Assembly (NCBI RefSeq): GCF_021353295.2
Contig: NZ_CP120635.1
Location: 1,530,001-1,594,000 of the forward strand
Origin: Pseudodesulfovibrio thermohalotolerans
GTDB lineage: Bacteria; Desulfobacterota; Desulfovibrionia; Desulfovibrionales; Desulfovibrionaceae
Length of the DNA: 64,000 nt
Reading direction: 5' to 3'
Position numbers and translations under genes: made by a program. This document shows, in pieces, positions 42,731 through 63,698 of this stretch. How positions within the stretch are numbered: position 1 is the first letter of the stretch; the number at the start of each line of letters is the position of its first letter. Under the pieces are notes generated by a model that saw nothing but the letters and a program-made list of their open reading frames with translations, was not told the origin of the DNA and did not search any database.

Positions 42731-42827
42731 TTGAGTCTGACTAGACTTTTCGCAGCTCTCAAATCAAACAACTAACGATGATGGAATGTATCCCGCCCTA
42801 AAAAGCTTGCATAGAACAGACTTTCTA

Positions 42828-42849
42828 TATATCAATAAATCTTGATATA
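42828..42849. repeat. AT-rich dyad just before the cobalamin riboswitch
   Basis: TATATCAA and TTGATATA, 8-bp perfect arms with a 6-base centre. It may be a regulator site or lie at the start of the metE transcript. Confidence 0.4.
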
Positions 42850-42855
42850 AGGATT

Positions 42856-42985
42856 TGGCAAGAAACGGAAAGCGGTGAAAAACCGCTGCGGACGCGCCGC
42901 TGTAACCGGCAAACCCGTTGATGACCACCTTTTTGGGGGAAGGGATTCAACACGATGGGGCCGGAAGCCAGAAGACGTCTTGCCA
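42856..42985 (+). promoter_or_regulatory. cobalamin riboswitch upstream of metE
   Basis: P1 stem TGGCAAG (42856-42862) with CTTGCCA (42979-42985). Inside are the conserved segments AGCGGTGAAAAACCGCTGCG, GCCGCTGTAACCGGC and the B12 box GAAGCCAGAAGAC at 42964. It precedes the cobalamin-independent methionine synthase by 130 bases. The expected logic is that adenosylcobalamin lowers metE expression when a B12-dependent enzyme can work. Confidence 0.88.
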
Positions 42986-43115
42986 GAGAGCAACCGCCTC
43001 GCGATCAGGTTAGGATGGCAGAAAACAACTCAGACCAGGATCATTCCCACGCTGTGTTTCTCTCAACCATCGCAAGGCACGCTCTACGTCTTTCACCCTG
43101 AAACATGGAGTAGAC

Positions 43116-49899: not shown

Positions 49900-49944
49900 T
49901 GGTCGGGATGAGAGGATTTGAACCTCCGATCTCTGCGTCCCGAA
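49900..49944 (-). other. attachment site: 3' half of tRNA-Pro(CGG)
   Basis: Read leftward this is the anticodon loop TTCGGGA, 3' anticodon stem CGCAG, variable bases AGATC, T-arm GGAGG-TTCAAAT-CCTCT, acceptor CATCCCG, A, CCA. Right of the loop the sequence no longer pairs with CGCAG and no D-arm or 5' acceptor follows, so only the half regenerated by integration is present. The complete tRNA should lie at the far end of the element, beyond 64000. The integrase gene follows after 118 bases. Confidence 0.85.
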
Positions 49945-50062: not shown

Positions 50063-51241
50063 TCATTCCGTTGGCTCCGTAGTGTCCACGCCGTTTTTGT
50101 CTGCCAGATCCGGGATCTCGAGGTCGGGGATTTCGAGAACCGTGTCACGCATCCGCTTCGGGACGACGTGTTTGTAACGGCGCATGATCATCGTCTGGTC
50201 TGCATGGCCCATAAGCGTTGCGATCGTCTTCGGGTCGCCTCCGTAGCCGTCGTTTCCGTTTTCAAGGGCCTCGGTAGCGAACGAGTGACGGAGGTCGTAC
50301 GGGCGGATGCGGCGGGTGATGCCGGCACGTTCCAGGGTAGCTGACCAAGCCGTCTTGATCGTGTTGATCGGCTCACCTTTCCAGTGGACGATGTGCTTGA
50401 TCCCGTTCTCTTCGTCCTGCTTCCGCCAGATCTGCATCACGTCGGAGACGATCGGCTTGATCGCCAAGTCCCGGTATTGGATTTCCAGGTTCTTGTTGGC
50501 CGACCATATTCGGAGCACGTCGTTGTCGCCGTCGATAGACACGTCTTCCCACTTCATCTTGAACAACTCGCTCGGTCCAACCCTGGCTCCTGTCCCCATG
50601 CCGAGTACGACAACACGCCTGACATGTTCACTCGCCACGGCCATGATCCTGTTTGCCTCCTCGATAGAAGGGGGCGGGATGATGAGGTCTGCTCCACGGG
50701 GTGCCGAAAAGCGTATGATAGGGTTTTCGTGAATCAGTTCTTCGTCTTCCGCCCAGTTCAAGGCGGCTTTGACAATCGAGATCTTGCGGTTGATCGTGTT
50801 CTGCTTGCAACCGGGGTAATCAATCCTGATCCCCTTTTTATCCTTGTAGTCACGCAGGATGAACCTTGGTTCACGAAGAAAACGGACCACTGCCCGCATG
50901 TCGGCCTTGGTCAGCTCAGTTGCCGGGATGTGGCCGATCATCGGCCTTACGTATTTGAGGTGGAGAAGGGTGTCGCGAAGGTTCTTCTTGGAGAACCGCT
51001 TGGCTTTCAGGTAGAGGAGAAAAATGTCGTCGAAGGTCAGCGCCCCGTCGCTTTCCTCTGCGTGTTCGGTCGGTGCGAACGATGCCCTGTCGTTCTTTTT
51101 GCGCAACTTGACCTCGGCTTCCTTAAGGTCGGCCTCCTCTTTGGTTGCGAACGACTTCGACTCCCGTCCACCAGTTATTGGGTTGCGCCAATATACCAGC
51201 CACGGTTTTTGCGGCCGATTTTTTCGGTGTTGTATTGCCAC
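50063..51241 (-). CDS. site-specific tyrosine recombinase (integrase) of the element
   Basis: 392 residues: an N-terminal arm-binding part (KNRPQKPWLVYWRNPITGGRE), a core-binding SAM-like domain (~65-165), and the catalytic domain with Arg in GTGARVGPSEL, R-H in RPYDLRHSFAT, His in MGHADQTM and Tyr in IMRRYKHV. The C-terminus has a short duplication (EIPDL twice). Start GTG at 51241 behind GGAGGGAGTC. It lies next to the tRNA-Pro half-site, as usual for tRNA-targeting elements. Confidence 0.95.
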   Translation of the reverse strand: MAIQHRKNRPQKPWLVYWRNPITGGRESKSFATKEEADLKEAEVKLRKKNDRASFAPTEHAEESDGALTFDDIFLLYLKAKRFSKKNLRDTLLHLKYVRPMIGHIPATELTKADMRAVVRFLREPRFILRDYKDKKGIRIDYPGCKQNTINRKISIVKAALNWAEDEELIHENPIIRFSAPRGADLIIPPPSIEEANRIMAVASEHVRRVVVLGMGTGARVGPSELFKMKWEDVSIDGDNDVLRIWSANKNLEIQYRDLAIKPIVSDVMQIWRKQDEENGIKHIVHWKGEPINTIKTAWSATLERAGITRRIRPYDLRHSFATEALENGNDGYGGDPKTIATLMGHADQTMIMRRYKHVVPKRMRDTVLEIPDLEIPDLADKNGVDTTEPTE

Positions 51242-55791: not shown

Positions 55792-56166
55792 CTACTTGAG
55801 GCGTGAAATGTCGCTCATCAGCATTGGGGACTTGATCATGAACGAGGTCAAGATCCTGGAGGAGATGCACATGCACGTGCCGAGCAAGACAGGTATGGCA
55901 TCACCAGAAGCGGCGGCAGACAGGGCTGTGAATGCGGCCATGGCCGTGCCGGAGATGCCTATCCCGGCGAGGGTCATGGGCGTGTTCCTGGGACAGTCCC
56001 AGTGGCCGAGGACGGCCCATATGTACGCCGGCAGGGTAAGCATGGTCGGGGTCATGGCATACCATATCGATGCGTCTGCCGGAGCGGCGAATCTTATCGT
56101 GAACACGGACACGAGGCCGATGGCCAGGGCCGCCCAGGCGGCGAGGTTTATGCGAGCTATCCCCAT
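55792..56166 (-). CDS. membrane protein with four helices, unknown
   Basis: 124 residues, almost entirely hydrophobic, four helices (WAALAIGLVSVFTIRFA; AMTPTMLTLPAYIWAVL; GIGISGTAMAAFTALSA; VLLGTCMCISSRILTSF). ATG at 56166 shares one base with the stop of the upstream regulator gene and has AAGGAGGAG. Function unknown; coupled to a ribbon-helix-helix-like protein. Confidence 0.65.
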   Translation of the reverse strand: MGIARINLAAWAALAIGLVSVFTIRFAAPADASIWYAMTPTMLTLPAYIWAVLGHWDCPRNTPMTLAGIGISGTAMAAFTALSAAASGDAIPVLLGTCMCISSRILTSFMIKSPMLMSDISRLK

Positions 56167-56531
56167 TATATCTCCTCCTTTTTAAGCGGCATTACGACCG
56201 ACATCTGCGTGTTCGCGCATGTTTCGACCGCTTCGGCTCCGATCTGTATGATGCGATCTGCGGCCTCCGAGCGGCTGATCTTCCATCTCTCTGCCAGGAG
56301 GTCGATGATAGCCAGGACATGCGTCGGAAGTTGGAACGTGACCCGCTCGATGTCGCCACGGGGCGTGTGGAGCGGCGACATTCCGTCGGCGTAGACGAGC
56401 CTTGCGCATGTCGCCAATGCCGCCGGGAGTGATATCCCATTTTGCTTCCAGCTCTCCAGCCGGTCCCTGGTCTCGGCGCAGAGCGTAAGGTTTACGCGTG
56501 TCCAGTTTTTTTCAAGCGATACTTTAGACAT
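56166..56531 (-). CDS. ribbon-helix-helix-like protein with two repeats
   Basis: 121 residues. Two similar segments each look like a strand-helix-helix unit: TRVNLTLCAETRDRLESWKQNGISLPAALATCARLVY and ERVTFQLPTHVLAIIDLLAERWKISRSEAADRIIQIG. A single chain with two such units could bind DNA as an internal dimer, as repressors of mobile elements do. ATG at 56531 has AAAGGAG upstream. Confidence 0.65.
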   Translation of the reverse strand: MSKVSLEKNWTRVNLTLCAETRDRLESWKQNGISLPAALATCARLVYADGMSPLHTPRGDIERVTFQLPTHVLAIIDLLAERWKISRSEAADRIIQIGAEAVETCANTQMSVVMPLKKEEI

Positions 56532-56542
56532 GTTCTTCTCCT

Positions 56543-56836
56543 TTACATGTTGTTGTCGGACTCGTCGACGTGGATTGGTTGCAAACAACTGGCATCAGAA
56601 GCGATGAGGAGCGCATCTTCGAACCCAATGTTGCCGGGGATGCCCAGCAACTTGTTGCCGTCCATATCCTCCACGGTCCAGAAGTCGTCACCTGCAGTCA
56701 TCTTGACCGGCCGACCACCGTTGCGATTGAGATCGACGATGAACCGCGTCGTGAAGCAGGACTCACAGATCTCATATACGTTGTAACGGCCAAGGTATCT
56801 CACCGCCCAAGGGTTTGTGATCAGCATTCTATTCAT
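56543..56836 (-). CDS. hypothetical protein, 97 residues
   Basis: Contains RYNVYEICESCFTTRFIVDLN and DDFWTVEDMDGNKLLGIPGNIGFEDALLIASDA; two Cys as CESC could bind metal. ATG at 56836 follows GGAGGACGAC. It lies between the 108-residue gene and the RHH-like gene with gaps of about 10 bases, so is part of one leftward operon from 57173 to 55792. Confidence 0.65.
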   Translation of the reverse strand: MNRMLITNPWAVRYLGRYNVYEICESCFTTRFIVDLNRNGGRPVKMTAGDDFWTVEDMDGNKLLGIPGNIGFEDALLIASDASCLQPIHVDESDNNM

Positions 56837-56846
56837 GTCGTCCTCC

Positions 56847-57173
56847 TTATGCTTCCAACATTATTTCGACAGCCGCGTCGGTCCAGGATGCGCTGTGGTC
56901 AGATTCGTCAGCCCAGCGGAAGCAGGGGAACAAGCGTCCGTCGATTTCGATCGTCGGTGTAGCGTTGTATGATGCGACGATCCCGGCTTCGTTTACAGCC
57001 TCGCCGTTCTTCAGGATGAATCCGGCGTTGTCGTCGAAATCTGTCCAGGCGTTCTTCATGCCAGCGCGGACATTTTCGCTATCGTGCGCCTTCATCAACT
57101 TCGCCGCGCGTTCCCAGTCAAATACCATAAATCCGCTGTTGAAGCTCTTGTCGAGTGATCCGATATGTGCCAT
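56847..57173 (-). CDS. hypothetical protein, 108 residues
   Basis: Soluble; DWERAAKLMKAHDSENVRAGMKNAWTDF and TIEIDGRLFPCFRWADESDHSASWTDAAVEIML. No family recognised. ATG at 57173 has CAAGGAG upstream. First gene of a four-gene leftward operon behind a promoter with an overlapping palindrome at 57216. Confidence 0.65.
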   Translation of the reverse strand: MAHIGSLDKSFNSGFMVFDWERAAKLMKAHDSENVRAGMKNAWTDFDDNAGFILKNGEAVNEAGIVASYNATPTIEIDGRLFPCFRWADESDHSASWTDAAVEIMLEA

Positions 57174-57215
57174 TTTCGATCTCCTTGTTTTTGTCGGCGT
57201 TCCTCTGCGCCGTTA

Positions 57216-57250
57216 GTGTGAATATTTCACACTTCAAGGCCTGAAGTCAA
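57216..57250 (-). promoter_or_regulatory. promoter with operator palindrome over the -10 box
   Basis: Leftward -35 TTGACT (57250-57245), 17-base spacer, -10 AAATAT (57227-57222). The palindrome GTGTGAATATTTCACAC (57216-57232) covers the -10, so a repressor there would block transcription of the operon 57173-55792. The half-site GTGTGAA resembles those of Rex/CRP-type regulators; the actual regulator is unknown. Confidence 0.65.
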
Positions 57251-57299
57251 GTTTTTGGGCAAAAAAAGTTGCCTTCCGGAGATATCATAACAGGTTGCG

Positions 57300-57318
57300 A
57301 AAACCGGTGAGCGCCAGG
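57300..57318. repeat. 19-bp repeat, copy 2
   Basis: AAAACCGGTGAGCGCCAGG, identical to 53768-53786; 50 bases upstream of the -35 box at 57250. Confidence 0.7.
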
Positions 57319-57368
57319 AGTTTTTAGCGACTTGTGGGGCTTGAAAGGGGAATGAAAAGAAAAAAGAA

Positions 57369-57386
57369 GCCCCGCCGAAGCGGGGC
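57369..57386 (-). terminator. terminator after the 157-residue gene
   Basis: GCCCCGCCGAAGCGGGGC hairpin, leftward followed by TTCTTTTTTC. The same 18 bases recur at 57893. Confidence 0.88.
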
Positions 57387-57393
57387 ATGGTGG

Positions 57394-57867
57394 CTAGTCG
57401 ACTCCGAATGCCTTGCGGATTTGAGATGCGATCAGGAGCGCACCGAGCGGCATGTCTTCGTCGAGGTCGTTGACGGTCTTTGCAGACAATATGAAGTCCT
57501 GGACGTTCTCGCCGTGCTTGTGAGCAACCTGTAAGAGGTGCCTGACGTTCATCGTCGTTGCTTGCGAAACACCGCCGAATGCGAATGCGTACGATATGAA
57601 TTCAAGTACGTCCTCGGTCACGTATTCGAGGTGGTACATTGCCGGGGCGCACAAGTCGAAACACTGGCGGCCGTTCTCGGTCTCCACCAGCTCCCTGATA
57701 GCCGCAACACGGGCCTTTTCAAGGTTTATGCGGTCGTCCCACCTGCTCAGCGTCTCCGTTTTTTTGTCGGCCCAGTCACAAAAAGCGTCAGTCGCCGAGT
57801 CAATGGCCCTGGCGACGAGCCGCTTTGCCGAAAAAGCAATTCTGAAAAACCAGCTTTCCTTCCCCAT
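57394..57867 (-). CDS. hypothetical protein, 157 residues
   Basis: Helical, soluble apart from an amphipathic N-terminus (ESWFFRIAFSAKRLVARAIDSATDAFCDW). No family recognised. ATG at 57867 has AAGGAG upstream. It is a single gene framed by two identical hairpin terminators. Confidence 0.65.
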   Translation of the reverse strand: MGKESWFFRIAFSAKRLVARAIDSATDAFCDWADKKTETLSRWDDRINLEKARVAAIRELVETENGRQCFDLCAPAMYHLEYVTEDVLEFISYAFAFGGVSQATTMNVRHLLQVAHKHGENVQDFILSAKTVNDLDEDMPLGALLIASQIRKAFGVD

Positions 57868-57892
57868 GATCTGTTCTCCTTATCGAAAAGTT

Positions 57893-57910
57893 GCCCCGCC
57901 GAAGCGGGGC
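57893..57910 (-). terminator. terminator after the 54-residue membrane gene
   Basis: GCCCCGCCGAAGCGGGGC, leftward followed by AACTTTTCG; identical hairpin to 57369. Confidence 0.8.
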
Positions 57911-57920
57911 GGTTGCGGTT

Positions 57921-58085
57921 CTACTTCCAACCCTTGGTCTTGACGACCGGGTAGCCGGCGCAAAACATGGACACGGCCAGGGCGGCCATGGCGATGACGA
58001 GGTTGCCGGTGACTGCGTTGATGCCGGCGACGACCGCCGAGCCGAATGCGGCGGACATGAATGAGAACTTGAGATATCTGTTCAT
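57921..58085 (-). CDS. 54-residue membrane protein
   Basis: MNRYLKFSFMSAAFGSAVVAGINAV begins a protein with two short membrane helices and a basic end (YPVVKTKGWK). ATG at 58085 has GGGAGGG upstream; an earlier in-frame start at 58118 is less good. Such two-helix peptides occur as holin-like or toxin-like proteins, but there is no further support. Copy 1 of the shared upstream element lies 50 bases before it. Confidence 0.6.
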   Translation of the reverse strand: MNRYLKFSFMSAAFGSAVVAGINAVTGNLVIAMAALAVSMFCAGYPVVKTKGWK

Positions 58086-58135
58086 CTTCCCTCCCGGGAA
58101 CGTTTCCAGCGGCCGCATCGTGCGGCCCCTAAAAC

Positions 58136-58169
58136 CTTATTCGCCGCAATGACCGCAACTCTTGCAAAA
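58136..58169 (-). promoter_or_regulatory. shared promoter-like element, copy 1
   Basis: Leftward TTTTGCAAGAG, 13 variable bases, GGCGAATAAG. The same blocks with the same 13-base gap occur at 59195 and 60183. TTGCAA and the AATA-containing block are 17-19 bases apart, like -35/-10 boxes. It precedes the 54-residue gene. Confidence 0.7.
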
Positions 58170-58260
58170 TCGGGCCAAAAAATGACGGAAAAGGAGAAAA
58201 AAATGGCCGAAGGCAGAAGAAAAAGGATCGGGAAAGGAACTGTGAATGAAATTTTGCCCC

Positions 58261-58400
58261 CCTTCACATGTGGTCGTATCCACCCTGCCTCGAGGGCGTG
58301 GGGGGAAACAAAGGATCACCTGCGGTGGGCCAAGGATCTCTGCCACCTTCACCTGTGATCGTATTCCCATGTCCACGGGGCGCGTGGGGGAAACAGCCTG
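58261..58400. repeat. two-copy imperfect repeat, 85-base period
   Basis: CCTTCACATGTGGTCGTAT at 58261 and CCTTCACCTGTGATCGTAT at 58346, each followed about 20 bases later by GCGTGGGGG(G)AAACA. Each copy can fold into a hairpin. With only two diverged copies it is not a CRISPR array; it may be a structured RNA or protein-binding region. Confidence 0.5.
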
Positions 58401-58414
58401 GATATTGCGTCGCG

Positions 58415-58606
58415 TCACCGCCGTCCGCCCCGGTGTTCGGCGTGACCGTCGAACATCGGAGGATCTTGATTGCGGCGACTGGCGAACGCCGCCAAGGCGC
58501 GGAGGAGCATCCGGTCATCGCGTCTTGGCGGCATTGCGGCGTGTTGTGGTCTTGGTTGTGCTGTGGATGGCCGGAGAAGGGTGATGATGCGGTCAATGAT
58601 CCGCAT
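58415..58606 (-). CDS. small basic protein, 63 residues (tentative)
   Basis: Starts at ATG 58606 with AGGAG 5 bases upstream, overlapping the preceding gene by 14 bases, which supports translation. Composition is Arg/Pro/Ala-rich (RPSTAQPRPQHAAMPPRRDDRMLLRALAAFASRR). No family recognised; could be spurious. Confidence 0.4.
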   Translation of the reverse strand: MRIIDRIITLLRPSTAQPRPQHAAMPPRRDDRMLLRALAAFASRRNQDPPMFDGHAEHRGGRR

Positions 58607-58937
58607 GAAATCTCCTGACGGCAGCCATGTCCACCTTCTCGTCGACTACATAGCCGAGCGGCTTGTTGTCGGCCTCCGGCTTCTGCTTAACCCGTTCGCC
58701 AATGACATAGACGTTTCCGGCTGCCTCGATGCGGCGGTCGCCGTCAAAGGAATGCGGGACTTCCCGTAGGGCAAGGGCAACGAAAAGCTTGTCCAGGACA
58801 CCGCTTTCACGGAGCCATGCGAGATCACGGACAATGACACGGTATGTCTTTCCGCTTTCCACTCGGCCCCTTGCCATCATCTCGTCGGCCATTGCGTATG
58901 GCCACTTCCAGCGCCGCTCCGGCGGAAGCATGGCCAT
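58593..58937 (-). CDS. hypothetical protein, 114 residues
   Basis: Soluble mixed alpha/beta protein; GKTYRVIVRDLAWLRESGVLDKLFVALALREVP and VYVIGERVKQKPEADNKPLGYVVDEKVD. ATG at 58937 is 2 bases after the zinc-ribbon gene stop, with GGTGGGAAG in its 3' end; the open frame further upstream overlaps that gene. Function unknown. Confidence 0.6.
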   Translation of the reverse strand: MAMLPPERRWKWPYAMADEMMARGRVESGKTYRVIVRDLAWLRESGVLDKLFVALALREVPHSFDGDRRIEAAGNVYVIGERVKQKPEADNKPLGYVVDEKVDMAAVRRFHADH

Positions 58938-58939
58938 GC

Positions 58940-59152
58940 CTACTTCCCACCCCGGTTGCGCTTCGCATTGCGCTTGAGCTGGACCGCGCACTTGTCGCAC
59001 ACCTCGACGATCTCGGCACCGACCTTGCCGTTCTTTTTCGTGTCGAGCTGGTTCAGCCTGACATACGGCTGTCCGCAAACGTAACACCTGGTCAGCTTTT
59101 CCCCATCATTGCCAACAACCATCCCGCCGTTCATGATCTTGATCTTTGCCAT
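58940..59152 (-). CDS. small zinc-ribbon protein, 70 residues
   Basis: Two CXXC pairs, CYVC and CDKC, 28 residues apart, typical of a zinc ribbon, then a basic tail (QLKRNAKRNRGGK) suited to nucleic acid binding. ATG at 59152 has CAAGGAG upstream; copy 2 of the shared element lies 43 bases before the start. Possibly a transcription or recombination accessory protein. Confidence 0.65.
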   Translation of the reverse strand: MAKIKIMNGGMVVGNDGEKLTRCYVCGQPYVRLNQLDTKKNGKVGAEIVEVCDKCAVQLKRNAKRNRGGK

Positions 59153-59194
59153 TTGATTCTCCTTGGCCGCGTTTCTTCCTGCGGCCTTTGCCTA

Positions 59195-59228
59195 CTTATT
59201 CGCCGCGAAGACCACCGCTCTTGCAAAA
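59195..59228 (-). promoter_or_regulatory. shared promoter-like element, copy 2
   Basis: TTTTGCAAGAG, 13 variable bases, GGCGAATAAG, as at 58136 and 60183; upstream of the zinc-ribbon gene. Confidence 0.7.
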
Positions 59229-59574
59229 AGGAGCATCGGATCAGCAAAAAAAATGAAAAAAAAGGAAGGAAATGGCCGCCACCCTTCATTTTTGATGCGG
59301 AAACCGGCGGGGGAAACAATGCGGCAAAGCCACATTTAATCAAAATTGACCGAAATCATCGTTTCGATCGCAAAACGCGGAAACGATCCAAAAACGCAAA
59401 AACGGTCGAATTTTGCAAAATTCGGCCATTTTCACTCCATGCGGATCCAAGGATCTTTTAAAAGATTTGTCAGATATGGGCCCAATAAAGGAAATTAAAG
59501 AGTTGTCATCAACCCCTCACGCAACCCCCGAAAAAAGCGGCCGCGGATAAACCATAAACCCACGGCCGACTTGA
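59229..59574. other. gap with long palindromes
   Basis: No gene seen. Holds the perfect 18-bp palindrome CGAATTTTGCAAAATTCG (59407-59424) and the 14-bp palindrome ATCTTTTAAAAGAT (59453-59466), embedded in AT-rich sequence with several A-runs and repeated AAACG/CGAAA words. Candidate regulator or replication site. Confidence 0.5.
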
Positions 59575-60177
59575 TCAGTGACAACTCTGTTCCCCGCGGA
59601 CAATCTCTATCCCCGCCGCCTCCAACTCCTCTGCGCTGTAGTATTCGGCTGCCGCCTCGAGATCTTCTTCCGTGACGACCTGGCGCACAGCCCTGACGCC
59701 GCCGCCCTCGTCAACAGCCGACCGTCGAATATCGCCGCGGACAGGATACGGGCAGTCGCGGAGCATATCGTACCGCCAGAGGTTGTCCTCCACCGTATCG
59801 AGCATCTGCGTGATCAGCCGGTTAGCGTATTGTCTAGAACACCGCCTCCAATACACGACGTAATCGACCGCCCCAGGCCGCCGTCCGCCGTCCTCGTCTT
59901 CGGGATATGTCCGGACGCACTCGCAATCAAGATACACGTCGAGTATCTTGCGCATCATCCGGTCCATGCCATCATCCATGATCATCTCCAGGTCGCGTCG
60001 CGTGTGGATCCGGTCTTCCGCCGACGGCCCGAACACGTCCCCGTCCGGAGTAAGCCCGAGTTCCCCGTCTGCAACACATCTCCCAGTCACTGACCCGACG
60101 GTCCCCGCCGTGTCACGCGCCGCAATAAGCCATTTCAGCGCATCCTCTGCCGATCGGAATTTCTTATCGTGTGTCAT
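59575..60177 (-). CDS. hypothetical acidic protein, 200 residues
   Basis: Soluble, acidic, with many Arg-Asp patches; EDALKWLIAARDTAG near the N-terminus and YVVYWRRCSRQYANRLITQMLDTVEDNLWRYDML in the middle, a pattern somewhat like small phage regulatory (ArpU/sigma-like) proteins, but not recognised. ATG at 60177 has no ribosome site and lies only about 6 bases after the shared element, so the mRNA may be leaderless; GTG at 60183 overlaps the element. Confidence 0.6.
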   Translation of the reverse strand: MTHDKKFRSAEDALKWLIAARDTAGTVGSVTGRCVADGELGLTPDGDVFGPSAEDRIHTRRDLEMIMDDGMDRMMRKILDVYLDCECVRTYPEDEDGGRRPGAVDYVVYWRRCSRQYANRLITQMLDTVEDNLWRYDMLRDCPYPVRGDIRRSAVDEGGGVRAVRQVVTEEDLEAAAEYYSAEELEAAGIEIVRGEQSCH

Positions 60178-60182
60178 ACCCA

Positions 60183-60216
60183 CTTATTCGCCTTATCCAC
60201 CGCCACTCTTGCAAAA
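60183..60216 (-). promoter_or_regulatory. shared promoter-like element, copy 3
   Basis: TTTTGCAAGAG, 13 variable bases, GGCGAATAAG, as in copies 1 and 2, ending 6 bases before the ATG at 60177. Confidence 0.7.
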
Positions 60217-60384
60217 ATCGCCTCCACACCCCCGGAAAAACCGTCCCGGCCGCCACGCAACTAAAAGATGAAAAAAGAATAAAAAAGAATGGTTATAGCA
60301 CAAGAAAGTGGAGAAATCTCTGGGCTCCTGCGCTGAATCGAGCGATATGGAAGGCGGAGAGGCAAAAGAAAAAAGGGGAACGAA

Positions 60385-60852
60385 ATGGGAATCGTGATTG
60401 CGATTGTCGGTGCGGTGGTGCTGTTCGGTGCTCTTGTCAGCAACGGCGGCGACGGCGGGACTGCGAGTTGGTCGGCCGGAGAGGATGGGGACGGGGACGG
60501 GTGGCAGTCGATGTTCGGCGATGATGGGATCGGGATCAGGTCTTCGGACGATATGTTCAATGATGATGACGCTGATTTGCTCTACAATGACGACATTTAC
60601 TACTCGCCTATCTACAGTCACCTTCCCTGCAATATCCACTATGATTCGTCGTCTGATTTTTTGTCGTCCGATGACGATTTTATGTCGTCGTCATCGGCGT
60701 TCGACGACGACTGGCCGAGTTCCTCTATCGACGATGATTTTTGCGGCACGTCGTCTATTGGGATTGATGATGACATTTGTGGGTGCGGGTGTTCGTCGTT
60801 TGATGATGATTTTGGCTGCGGGTGTGGAATCGGGTGCGGGTTGGACGATTGA
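60385..60852 (+). CDS. membrane-anchored Asp/Ser-rich, Cys-rich low-complexity protein
   Basis: 155 residues on the strand opposite to nearly all its neighbours. A short membrane helix (residues 3-18, IVIAIVGAVVLFGALV) is followed by ~135 residues dominated by Asp, Ser, Gly and Cys, with repeated DDD(F/I/W) and SS blocks (SSIDDDFCG, GIDDDICGCGC, FDDDFGCGCGIGCGLDD) and eight Cys, seven of them in the last 40 residues. AAGGGGAACGAA precedes the ATG, and a terminator hairpin follows at 60888, both supporting a real gene. Metal binding (acidic and Cys clusters) on the cell surface is a reasonable guess; no family recognised. Confidence 0.65.
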   Translation: MGIVIAIVGAVVLFGALVSNGGDGGTASWSAGEDGDGDGWQSMFGDDGIGIRSSDDMFNDDDADLLYNDDIYYSPIYSHLPCNIHYDSSSDFLSSDDDFMSSSSAFDDDWPSSSIDDDFCGTSSIGIDDDICGCGCSSFDDDFGCGCGIGCGLDD

Positions 60853-60887
60853 TGGCCGATGAAAAGGGAAGGAAATGAAGAAAGAAG

Positions 60888-60907
60888 AAGCCCCCTGGCG
60901 GGGGCTT
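60888..60907. terminator. bidirectional terminator between convergent genes
   Basis: AAGCCCCC-TGGC-GGGGGCTT; T-rich on both sides (TTTCTTG rightward, CTTCTTTCTTC leftward), serving the + strand acidic gene and the leftward replication gene. Confidence 0.85.
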
Positions 60908-60956
60908 TCTTGTGGTCTGTGGTCGGTGGTAGGCGAGGTGGGGATTGGTGGTGCGG

Positions 60957-62240
60957 TTAGCCCTGGGTTGCGGCGACCCACTCCATGAGGCGGTCGTAGT
61001 CTAGGCCGTCCTGTTCGCAGTACCCCCTGATCGCCTCGTCGCCGTCGTTGCAGAAGAACTTCCACAGCCTAGAGAAGGTAGATATTTCATCAGCTGTGAA
61101 TCCGTCCGCCACGCCCGAAGCCTTTGCTTCTTTACGCAACTCTTTCGCAAACAAACAGATATCCTTGTTCTTTGCAATTCCGTTAAGGAACTGCGGGAAT
61201 CCTTTCCTATTGCGCTTGCGCACGTAGTTGATGACGGCGATTGCGTCGTCGACAGACAGGCCGGACAGGTGGGAAGCTACCCCGCGGTCCTGGCGGACGG
61301 ACTCCGGGAGGGCTTCGATGACCGATGGGTCAAGCGATCCGTTGCGCTTCTGTGTCGCCTTCGGAGCCTTGGGCTTCGGAGTATCAACGGCGGTCTTGTT
61401 AGATCCTTCTCCTTTTGCAACGTCGAATGCGTTCGGCACCGCGGCTGTATCGAAAACGTACATGGCTTTGTCTGCTCTGCCGACCTTTGTTGCCGTTATT
61501 TCCCACCCTGTCTTTTCCTTGATCTCCGCAAGGCGAGGTTTGACGTATGCCGAAAATGCACGGCTGACAGGTATTTCGTTTCCCCGTTCCTCGCCGAGCC
61601 ACATCCGGCAGAACGTGCGTGACCGTATCTTAAGTTGCCCGTGAAAGAGGAACGACTGCATCAGCGCATACAGCGACGTTGCAAGGCCTCCGAGCGGAAG
61701 GATATGGCGAAGAGCGAGGTAGTGCGTCTTTGTTGTGTCGTTTTCGATCTCGTCGATATAATCTTGGGAGAAGTCGAGGCGGTACGAAGCCTTGCCTACC
61801 GGGCTGTATCCAAACAGCCGGAACTCCGTTTCCTCTGCTTGGCCCGGGCGCAAAATGCCTATGTTGAGACGGCCGTACCTTCGGATTGCCGCTCGGACTC
61901 CCTCGTAGCTGCTCTTCGCCCTTGTCAACCCTATACCGTCAACTATGTCCCTGACGTTCACGACTACGATCCTGGTTGACGGGTCGTCCATACGAGCCTT
62001 CTGCAATACACCGAGTACGTAATAGTAAACAGGGGCATCTGTCGGGAGCGGAAGCTTGTCGTCGACTGTCCGGTGTGTATACCGAGTGTCGTCGCGAAAA
62101 AACGTCTGGAGTTCGAGGTCGCCGGATGACATGGCGTTGTTGCTATTTGGGTGCAGCTCGGCGAGATACCGAAGCTCTTTTACGACGACCTTTGCTGGGT
62201 CGATCTGGAGGCTGGTTGATGTGGATTCTTCATTCTTCAT
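60957..62240 (-). CDS. probable iteron-dependent replication initiator
   Basis: 427 residues. The middle part (YYYVLGVLQKARMDD... VRDIVDGIGLTRAKSSYEGVRAAIRRYGRLNIGI and THYLALRHILPLGGLATSLYALMQSFLFHG) resembles the winged-helix cores of plasmid and phage-plasmid Rep proteins. The C-terminal third (SVDDAIAVINYVRKRNRKGFPQFLNGIAKN) is a separate helical domain. The assignment is strengthened by four iterons 110-215 bases upstream of the start. ATG at 62240 has GGAG about 10 bases before it; the frame is open through the iterons but that reading just translates the repeats. It should open the origin at 62340-62560. Confidence 0.72.
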   Translation of the reverse strand: MKNEESTSTSLQIDPAKVVVKELRYLAELHPNSNNAMSSGDLELQTFFRDDTRYTHRTVDDKLPLPTDAPVYYYVLGVLQKARMDDPSTRIVVVNVRDIVDGIGLTRAKSSYEGVRAAIRRYGRLNIGILRPGQAEETEFRLFGYSPVGKASYRLDFSQDYIDEIENDTTKTHYLALRHILPLGGLATSLYALMQSFLFHGQLKIRSRTFCRMWLGEERGNEIPVSRAFSAYVKPRLAEIKEKTGWEITATKVGRADKAMYVFDTAAVPNAFDVAKGEGSNKTAVDTPKPKAPKATQKRNGSLDPSVIEALPESVRQDRGVASHLSGLSVDDAIAVINYVRKRNRKGFPQFLNGIAKNKDICLFAKELRKEAKASGVADGFTADEISTFSRLWKFFCNDGDEAIRGYCEQDGLDYDRLMEWVAATQG

Positions 62241-62350: not shown

Positions 62351-62453
62351 TATGTGGTTCAATGCAAAAAACCAGGTATTTTATGTGGTTCAATGCAAAA
62401 TTTATGTGGTTCAATGCAAAATAACCCAAGTTTTTATGTGGTTCAATGCAAAA
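62351..62453. repeat. four iterons, probable replication origin
   Basis: TATGTGGTTCAATGCAAAA occurs four times without mismatch, at 62351, 62382, 62403 and 62435 (19 bp each; start-to-start 31, 21 and 32 bases). All are in the same orientation, directly upstream of the initiator gene, next to AT-rich sequence around 62500-62525. This is the standard layout of an iteron-type origin with Rep autoregulation. Confidence 0.9.
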
Positions 62454-62996: not shown

Positions 62997-63698
62997 ATGG
63001 CTGACAAGATCGGAGTGGAACTTGATTGGGGATTGCTCGAGCCGACGATTGCCGTCGCTGTCAGGAGGACAAGGGCGACGATGCTTGAAAAATGCGGATC
63101 AGCGCAGGACGGAGACGAGATCGCCGCAGATTTTATGGAATTCCTCTGGCTTAACCGCCACAAATACGATGCGAAAATTGCCGCGCAGAATACCTGGGCG
63201 GATGCCTTTCTTCGCAACCGGTCCATGCAACTCGTCGATGAATACCGCCGCGACGCAAACCGCTACGTGTCGCTCGACTCGATGTCCGCCGGCGGGGGCG
63301 ATACGGAATACGAGGTTCCGGACGATACCGCAGATACCCACGCCGCCGCCATGGCCTCCGCAGAGATCGAGGCCGCATTGGGCGACATGGTGCGCCGGCT
63401 AAACGGTGATCCCGTCGCCCAGCTTGTCCTCGTCGAACTCGCCGCCCCGTCGCCGGAGGTACGTGCTGCAACATCAGCATACGAGGCGCAACACAGCATC
63501 AGCGTGTCGATGACACCATGCGACGTGATCTGCGCTGTTTACAACCTGCGCCCCTTGATCGTGTCGATCGCCATGGCTCGTGTCCGCGCTGTCTTGTCCG
63601 GCCAGTCACCTGCTTCCGCCAAGTCTTCTTCCTCCGCCAATCTCCGCACCGCCCCGATCACCGTCACCAACCACATGGAGGTCTGCCGTGCCGCATAG
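62997..63698 (+). CDS. sigma-70 region-2-like protein
   Basis: 233 residues. The stretch DEIAADFMEFLWLNRHKYD...NTWADAFLRNRSMQLVDEYRRDANRYVSLDSM follows the pattern of sigma-70 region 2 (2.1 to 2.4: helical LWL-type core, W--AFLRN---D--RR, then VSLDS). The second half could be a region-4 equivalent but has no clear helix-turn-helix, and ends in a Ser/Ala-rich tail. ATG at 62997 follows AGGAG. It could give the element its own promoter recognition; the three shared elements at 58136, 59195 and 60183 are candidate targets. Coupled to the next gene by an 11-base overlap. Confidence 0.6.
   Translation: MADKIGVELDWGLLEPTIAVAVRRTRATMLEKCGSAQDGDEIAADFMEFLWLNRHKYDAKIAAQNTWADAFLRNRSMQLVDEYRRDANRYVSLDSMSAGGGDTEYEVPDDTADTHAAAMASAEIEAALGDMVRRLNGDPVAQLVLVELAAPSPEVRAATSAYEAQHSISVSMTPCDVICAVYNLRPLIVSIAMARVRAVLSGQSPASAKSSSSANLRTAPITVTNHMEVCRAA

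Follow-up and report, generated by a model that had tools for sequence, protein, structure and literature searches.

Promoter-like elements with a fixed and a type-specific half in related prophages of Pseudodesulfovibrio suggest a private gene regulator for each type

Introduction

What is the role of a motif of two fixed blocks that stands three times before small genes of a prophage, and what reads it? The question is raised by a stretch of 64,000 nucleotides from Pseudodesulfovibrio thermohalotolerans (NZ_CP120635.1, positions 1,530,001 to 1,594,000 of the forward strand), referred to here as the window; positions beyond its end are given in extended window coordinates. A first-pass annotation had proposed that the motif is promoter-like and defines a small regulon of the element that carries it. 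The features of the locus are collected in Table 1.

Table 1. Features of the prophage discussed in the text (window coordinates)
Feature	Position	Strand	Remarks
Integrase	50063-51241		
Putative tandem ribbon-helix-helix protein	56166..56531	-	121 aa, strands TRVNLTL and ERVTFQL; candidate trans-acting factor
Near-consensus sigma-70 promoter	57216..57250	-	TTGACT-N18-AATATT, 17-bp palindrome (7-bp arms) over -10; ~0.7 kb upstream of ribbon-helix-helix gene
Gene A	57921..58085	-	54 aa, small hydrophobic protein, membrane-like by inspection; behind site A; first base of ATG 58085; relatives in G011, G017
Stem-loop, site A	58111..58127	-	GGCCGCA-CGA-TGCGGCC, just past predicted start
Site A	58136..58169	-	blocks 58159-58169 (upstream) and 58136-58145 (downstream), with core CGAATA at 58138-58143; predicted transcription start 58130
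115-aa frame	58593-58940	-	downstream of gene B, same direction
Gene B	58940..59152	-	70 aa, zinc-ribbon-like on inspection, with two CxxC pairs; follows site B; first base of ATG 59152
Stem-loop, site B	59165..59186	-	GGCCGC-N10-GCGGCC, just past predicted start, directly before likely ribosome-binding site
Site B	59195..59228	-	blocks 59218-59228 (upstream) and 59195-59204 (downstream), with core at 59197-59202; predicted transcription start 59189
Gene C	59575..60177	-	200 aa, function unknown; relatives in P2, G022, G011, G033a, G033b, G005
Site C	60183..60216	-	blocks 60206-60216 (upstream) and 60183-60192 (downstream), with core at 60185-60190; predicted transcription start 60177, the A of the gene C ATG (leaderless)
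Iteron-like repeats	62352-62453	-	four exact 18-bp repeats TTTTGCATTGAACCACAT before 427-aa putative initiator, as in plasmids and phage-plasmids

Three copies of the motif in a temperate prophage

The motif, TTTTGCAAGAG-N13-GGCGAATAAG, was found exactly three times in the window, each time on the minus strand and at the place that the first-pass annotation had given (sites A, B and C), and was absent from all of 100 dinucleotide shuffles of the window. By itself TTTTGCAAGAG occurs in the window at the same three places only. A scan of the genome (one contig, 3,887,578 bases) that allowed up to three mismatches returned the same three copies and none in host DNA. By itself GGCGAATAAG occurs ten times in the genome (once for the reversed control), and four of these ten lie in the prophage, three in the motif copies and one at 70162 (extended). 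The annotation had described the outer blocks as identical, which they are, and the 13 inner bases as different, which holds only in part, four of the 13 inner columns being alike in all three copies. The copies do stand before leftward genes as claimed, but the distances from motif end to ATG are 50, 42 and 5 bases for the 54-, 70- and 200-residue genes, where the annotation gave 6-50. Exact matches to the pattern were absent from a named genome collection, from which genomes near the window's own may be missing, and from viral contigs.

The three copies sit in a prophage of ~49 kb of a temperate tailed phage. Its ends are taken to be the two copies, at 49927 and 99146 (extended), of an 18-bp direct repeat; the right copy lies inside a tRNA-Pro gene. 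The left arm consists of small leftward genes, and a protein of the right arm resembles phage terminase large subunits (32-36% identity among the best 20 of 356 records). The sites are near-identical, stand shortly before gene starts and are confined to the one element.

A poor match to the host consensus had also been claimed, and this was borne out by a simple sigma-70 scan of positions 56000-61000, which picked three promoters in all against 2.6 expected, among them 57250-57221 and none of the three sites. Tested against standard sigma-70 promoters (TTGACA-16/18-TATAAT-like hexamers), sites A, B and C fall outside the class. The FliA-type promoter consensus, compared by eye only, fits poorly. 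A small peptide encoded in the motif, whose blocks lie in one frame ending FCKS...GE-stop, was rejected because in copy B a stop codon lies in frame just upstream and is followed by no start codon.

Related prophages and the genes behind the sites

The pattern was also sought in relatives. A scan of 60 related genomes, the window's own included, found three sites in G022. Two are exact copies, which precede the orthologue of gene B and another gene, D, respectively; the third has two mismatches and precedes a broken gene C. Single three-mismatch matches in G009 and G053 were taken for chance, since the reversed-pattern control matched in 5 of the 60 genomes. Further elements were found by protein searches. 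The set compared with the window's prophage (el) comprised five related prophage regions (P2, G022, G011, G033a and G033b) and contig pieces of G005 and G017, with 19 sites altogether. P2 (C1:1391001-1451000) is a second related prophage of the same genome and has another type of promoter box.

Gene B has weak PHROG matches, all of function unknown. Of 345 genomes of the order, five have a match to gene C, the window's own among them, and all five belong to this genus; G017 has none, and searches of phage records found no relatives of it. Word-based scans of viral contigs likewise returned no relatives of genes B and C or of the sigma-like protein considered below. The relative of gene A in G011 has no ATG at the corresponding start. 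Several of the related elements are decaying, and gene C is broken in G022 (a stop after five codons) and in G011. Sites are kept before the broken-looking B and C genes of G011 and the B gene of G033a and are degraded before the broken genes C of G022, D of P2 and D of G033b, so that site quality does not cleanly track gene integrity.

Position of the blocks relative to the transcription start

A constant distance joins the core of the downstream block to the start codon of gene C. In all seven copies of the gene the layout is core-N7-ATG (CGAATA in six, CAAATA in the broken copy of G022), and frame E of G033b has the same arrangement. When the 19 sites, which are non-independent and include many orthologues (site D of G033b, identical to that of P2, was left out), were aligned on the core, the eighth base after it was a purine in 19/19 (A in 17, G in 2) and the seventh a pyrimidine in 17/19. 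Among the 11 leadered sites, in which the base is not dictated by a start codon, nine have A and two have G at position 8, and nine have a pyrimidine at position 7. At 10 of these 11 a stem-loop with four or more pairs begins between +2 and +8, compared with one weak 4-bp case among the eight leaderless ones, these being raw counts with no shuffle control.

Position 8 is likely to be the transcription start, +1. It follows that the upstream and downstream blocks would lie at -39 to -29 and -15 to -6, about where the first-pass annotation had placed them in relation to -35 and -10 boxes, and that genes C and E would be leaderless.

The same geometry bears on the possibility that the element is an RNA signal, such as a hairpin, an antitermination signal or a leader regulator, transcribed from further upstream. 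By eye, several sites can fold with GAATAAG in the loop and with seemingly compensating stems. Against this stand the weak predicted fold of site C of el (-7.6 kcal/mol in 61 bases) and the absence, in this part of the window, of Rfam matches at or above the gathering score; the purine start together with the leaderless layout would also place the blocks outside the transcript. An RNA signal is very improbable. The comparison of sequences supports instead the reading of the three sites as promoters.

Separate histories of the upstream and downstream blocks

The downstream block has a mean identity of 0.75-0.89 in every class of site pairs, and its core is kept in all elements. Three types were distinguished in the upstream block. 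The block is TTTTGCAAGAG in el and G022 (type 1), and the TTTTTTGCSGGAR of two sites in G033a was counted with it, although these sites score 0.45-0.73 against the other type-1 sites and are only partly type-1-like. In type 2 it is GGCCAASTTGYC, at sites A and B of G011 and A of G017; site C of G011 has a shifted block, with an ungapped identity of 0.09-0.27 to the other type-2 sites. In type 3 it is TTGTGCAAC, 15 bases before CGAATATT, at site C of P2 and sites C and E of G033b. With at most one mismatch, among 36 genomes of the genus, type 2 was found only in G011 (two) and G017 (one) and type 3 only in G033b (two) and P2 (one), with no control matches.

The upstream block goes with the type of prophage and not with the gene. 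Within a type, its identity between different genes averaged 0.75 (24 pairs); between copies of the same gene in different types it averaged 0.48 (13 pairs), whereas in the sequence further upstream the order was reversed (0.31 and 0.38, respectively). This count used 14 of 17 sites: C of G022 and D of P2 were dropped for their broken genes and C of G005 for want of an assignable type, and two T sites lay outside the set. Blast matches of el to G011 over genes A and C stop 1-2 bases past the downstream block (58147 and 60193 in el). In nine stretches compared around CGAATA, 11 pairs share a run of at least seven bases; permuted cores gave 8.2 such pairs on average and 29 at most, and the count is not significant. 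Shared runs of 9-13 bases are found in five of the 11 pairs, controls not being tabulated by run length.

The window's own genome holds two types (el and P2), as does G033 (G033a and G033b). Because two types occur within one genome, host factors do not readily explain them, and the simplest assumption is that the element itself encodes the protein that reads the block. On these sequence comparisons, an element-encoded DNA-binding factor probably reads the upstream block, and the retention of one half while the other has changed in step across related prophages suggests that each type has its own private gene regulator. The small regulon that the first-pass annotation had proposed thus draws support from the confinement of the motif to the element, from the start signature and from the concerted change of the block in relatives. 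One further site, at 70138 (extended) before the terminase genes and present also in G022, keeps the downstream block and has a different upstream block (CTCGAA), so the promoter class may exceed one factor.

Candidate readers of the upstream block

Promoters of alternative sigma factors typically have long, stringent blocks, and both blocks might be read by a phage-encoded sigma factor. A candidate is the protein at 62997-63698 (plus strand), which weakly resembles ECF-type region 2 (NCBIfam RNA polymerase sigma factor, E 0.0039; RpoE structure 2q1z in the PDB, E 0.02). It does not reach the sigma-70 family profiles, with no Pfam match and 17 bits against an NCBIfam cut-off of 353, and its structure model, like that of the ribbon-helix-helix protein below, is of low confidence. 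It was matched in one of 348 genomes of the order, its own, where it occurs in el and, as two hits in different frames, in P2. The alignments of el to G022, G033a and G033b skip the stretch. The protein was discarded as reader of the box on the ground that G022 has intact type-1 sites without a match to it; P2, moreover, carries a relative together with another box type. A phage sigma factor reading both blocks is a very unlikely explanation.

A second candidate is the 427-aa protein, regarded as a putative replication initiator from the four exact 18-bp repeats that precede its gene, and without a family match in profile searches. These repeats share TTTTGCA with the upstream block, which raises the idea that the blocks are initiator-binding sites or other non-transcriptional repeats. 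The repeats of G011 are like TTTTGCATTGAACCACAT, and those of G022 and G033 are quite different. G011, with a similar putative initiator (53-56%) and similar repeats, nevertheless has another box, and G022, with a distant initiator (31-34%) and other repeats, has the same box. The putative initiator was rejected as reader because its relatedness, el being closest to G011, contradicts the box types, and a non-transcriptional role of the blocks appears highly improbable.

Among the candidates, the putative tandem ribbon-helix-helix protein is the best one, on the strength of a correlation across three element groups. Homologues were found in 7/7 elements with an assigned type, and their divergence follows the types; searches of G005, which has no assignable type, gave no match. 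Identity to the protein of el is 88% in G022, 84% in G033a and 43% in G011, the proteins of G011 and G017 form a close pair, and those of P2 and G033b are distant. The second strand reads ERVTFQLP in el, G022 and G033a, ASVTFLLS in G011 and ETVTFLLS in G017. There are extra homologues: G011 and G017 each have a second copy, and G011 has one more at another place (3224404), where no typed site was seen. The assignment to the ribbon-helix-helix fold is tentative, with profile scores below threshold: 17.6 bits against a curated cut-off of 26 for Pfam RHH_5, 15.4 against 20.5 for RHH_1 and 17.4 against 60 for the aCcr1 family (E 0.003). A single-sequence structure model (mean pLDDT 53.6) has helix pairs at residues 16-31/35-48 and 70-83/87-107 and no strand, and a Foldseek search with this low-confidence model gave no match at E up to 0.001.

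The ribbon-helix-helix gene lies ~0.5-0.7 kb behind a palindrome-bearing promoter in el, G022, G033a, G011 and G017 (in G017 by reading). The palindrome, GTGTGAAATATTCACAC, covers the -10 of two near-consensus promoters of el, at 57216-57232 (minus strand) and 69244 (extended). It is conserved in G022 and G033a and altered in G011 and G017, and no such palindrome with up to four mismatches was found in P2 and G033b. It is perhaps a repressor operator, and the promoter at 57216-57250, which is of a different class from sites A, B and C, would express the ribbon-helix-helix factor.

Ribbon-helix-helix proteins are often repressors, and the upstream block might itself be the operator of an element-specific repressor of the immunity kind, the promoters being on by default and shut in the lysogen, and orthologous promoters differing since the elements are heteroimmune. 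Short dyads occur in the blocks, TTGCAA in those of el and G022 and CAASTTG in those of G011 and G017; the blocks also lie across the -35 region and vary by element type. In lambdoid immunity operators, too, the operator is specific to the phage type and the rest of the promoter is shared; unlike these, the prophage sites are single and stand before scattered genes (A, B, C, D and E over the elements). Pfam scans of 19 element proteins, a subset of the frames, found no CI-like repressor. The promoters are, however, far from consensus, which suits activation better, and the separate palindrome over the near-consensus promoters, nearly the same in el, G022 and G033a, looks like an ordinary operator. 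Repression at the upstream block is possible but doubtful.

Proposed mechanism and comparison with known systems

In the activator model, sites A, B and C would be promoters of three separate leftward transcription units of the prophage. The -10-recognising region of the holoenzyme would read GGCGAATAAG, and a phage-encoded DNA-binding protein would sit on TTTTGCAAGAG, standing in for the -35 box. That factor would be the tandem ribbon-helix-helix protein, made from the promoter at 57216-57250, and it would switch on a second wave of small genes, namely A, B, C and, in a relative, gene D. Transcripts A and B would open with a stem-loop before the ribosome-binding site, and transcript C would open at its AUG. 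From the comparisons above we infer that the sites function as promoters, that this protein is the factor and that it activates. Taken whole, with its three promoters, a phage factor replacing the -35 box and the tandem protein as activator, the proposal is the best supported of the readings and slightly more likely than not.

Promoters regulated by phage proteins are a known kind, of which the present case would be a variant. At the middle promoters of phage T4 a phage-specific MotA box is described as replacing the -35 element while the host holoenzyme reads the -10, a process termed sigma appropriation; the box is centred at -30, 12 +/- 1 bp from the -10, and a good -10 is demanded (PMC2988021). 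The promoters proposed here would likewise have a phage box instead of a -35, and both boxes are T-rich and contain TGC. They differ in that the prophage block is centred at -34 and lies 16 bp from a poor -10-like GAATAA, and in that the phage is temperate where T4 is lytic. Tested for a box 12 +/- 1 bp from a good sigma-70 -10, the prophage sites fall outside the T4 type. The activator Mor of phage Mu is a helix-turn-helix protein. At the Mu promoter Pm it is described as binding inverted repeats upstream of a sigma-70 promoter (PMC4390567). The Mor element is centred at -43.5, whereas the prophage block lies over -35 instead. By an unproven analogy, the system would work like the middle promoters of T4 or Mu without falling under the T4 definition as tested. 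The candidate resembles ribbon-helix-helix regulators such as AmrZ, Arc and CopG in its putative strand-helix-helix-like units, of which it would have two; it differs in carrying both units in one chain, in tandem, and in profile scores that lie below cut-off. AmrZ is reported to act both as activator and as repressor (PMC3325190).

A wider proposal is private phage transcription: recognition of the -35 would be taken over by a tandem ribbon-helix-helix protein, the box would co-evolve with the reading head, and related prophages in one cell would each drive scattered small genes, one of them through a leaderless mRNA, without cross-talk. It is advanced tentatively, the likelihood being rather against it. 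How temperate phages that are related and share a cell may keep their regulons apart can be tested on this locus, in which one half of a promoter is fixed and the other is switched, in step with a candidate regulator, at several genes. The locus would further give a natural matched set of protein and site variants for the study of DNA recognition by ribbon-helix-helix proteins. A literature search, within the portion of its sources that was accessible, found no published work on prophage promoters in Pseudodesulfovibrio.

Other features of the locus

Outside the prophage the window contains a cobalamin riboswitch at 42817-42997 (plus strand). An Asp- and Ser-rich frame of 155 residues at 60385-60852 (plus strand) has matches in all six other elements compared, those in G005 and G011 being weak and possibly compositional. 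A second repeated intergenic motif, with GTTTCCCCC / GGGGGAAAC, occurs at 58301, 58386, 59309, 68397 and 68528 (the last two extended) and is present in all seven stretches scanned.
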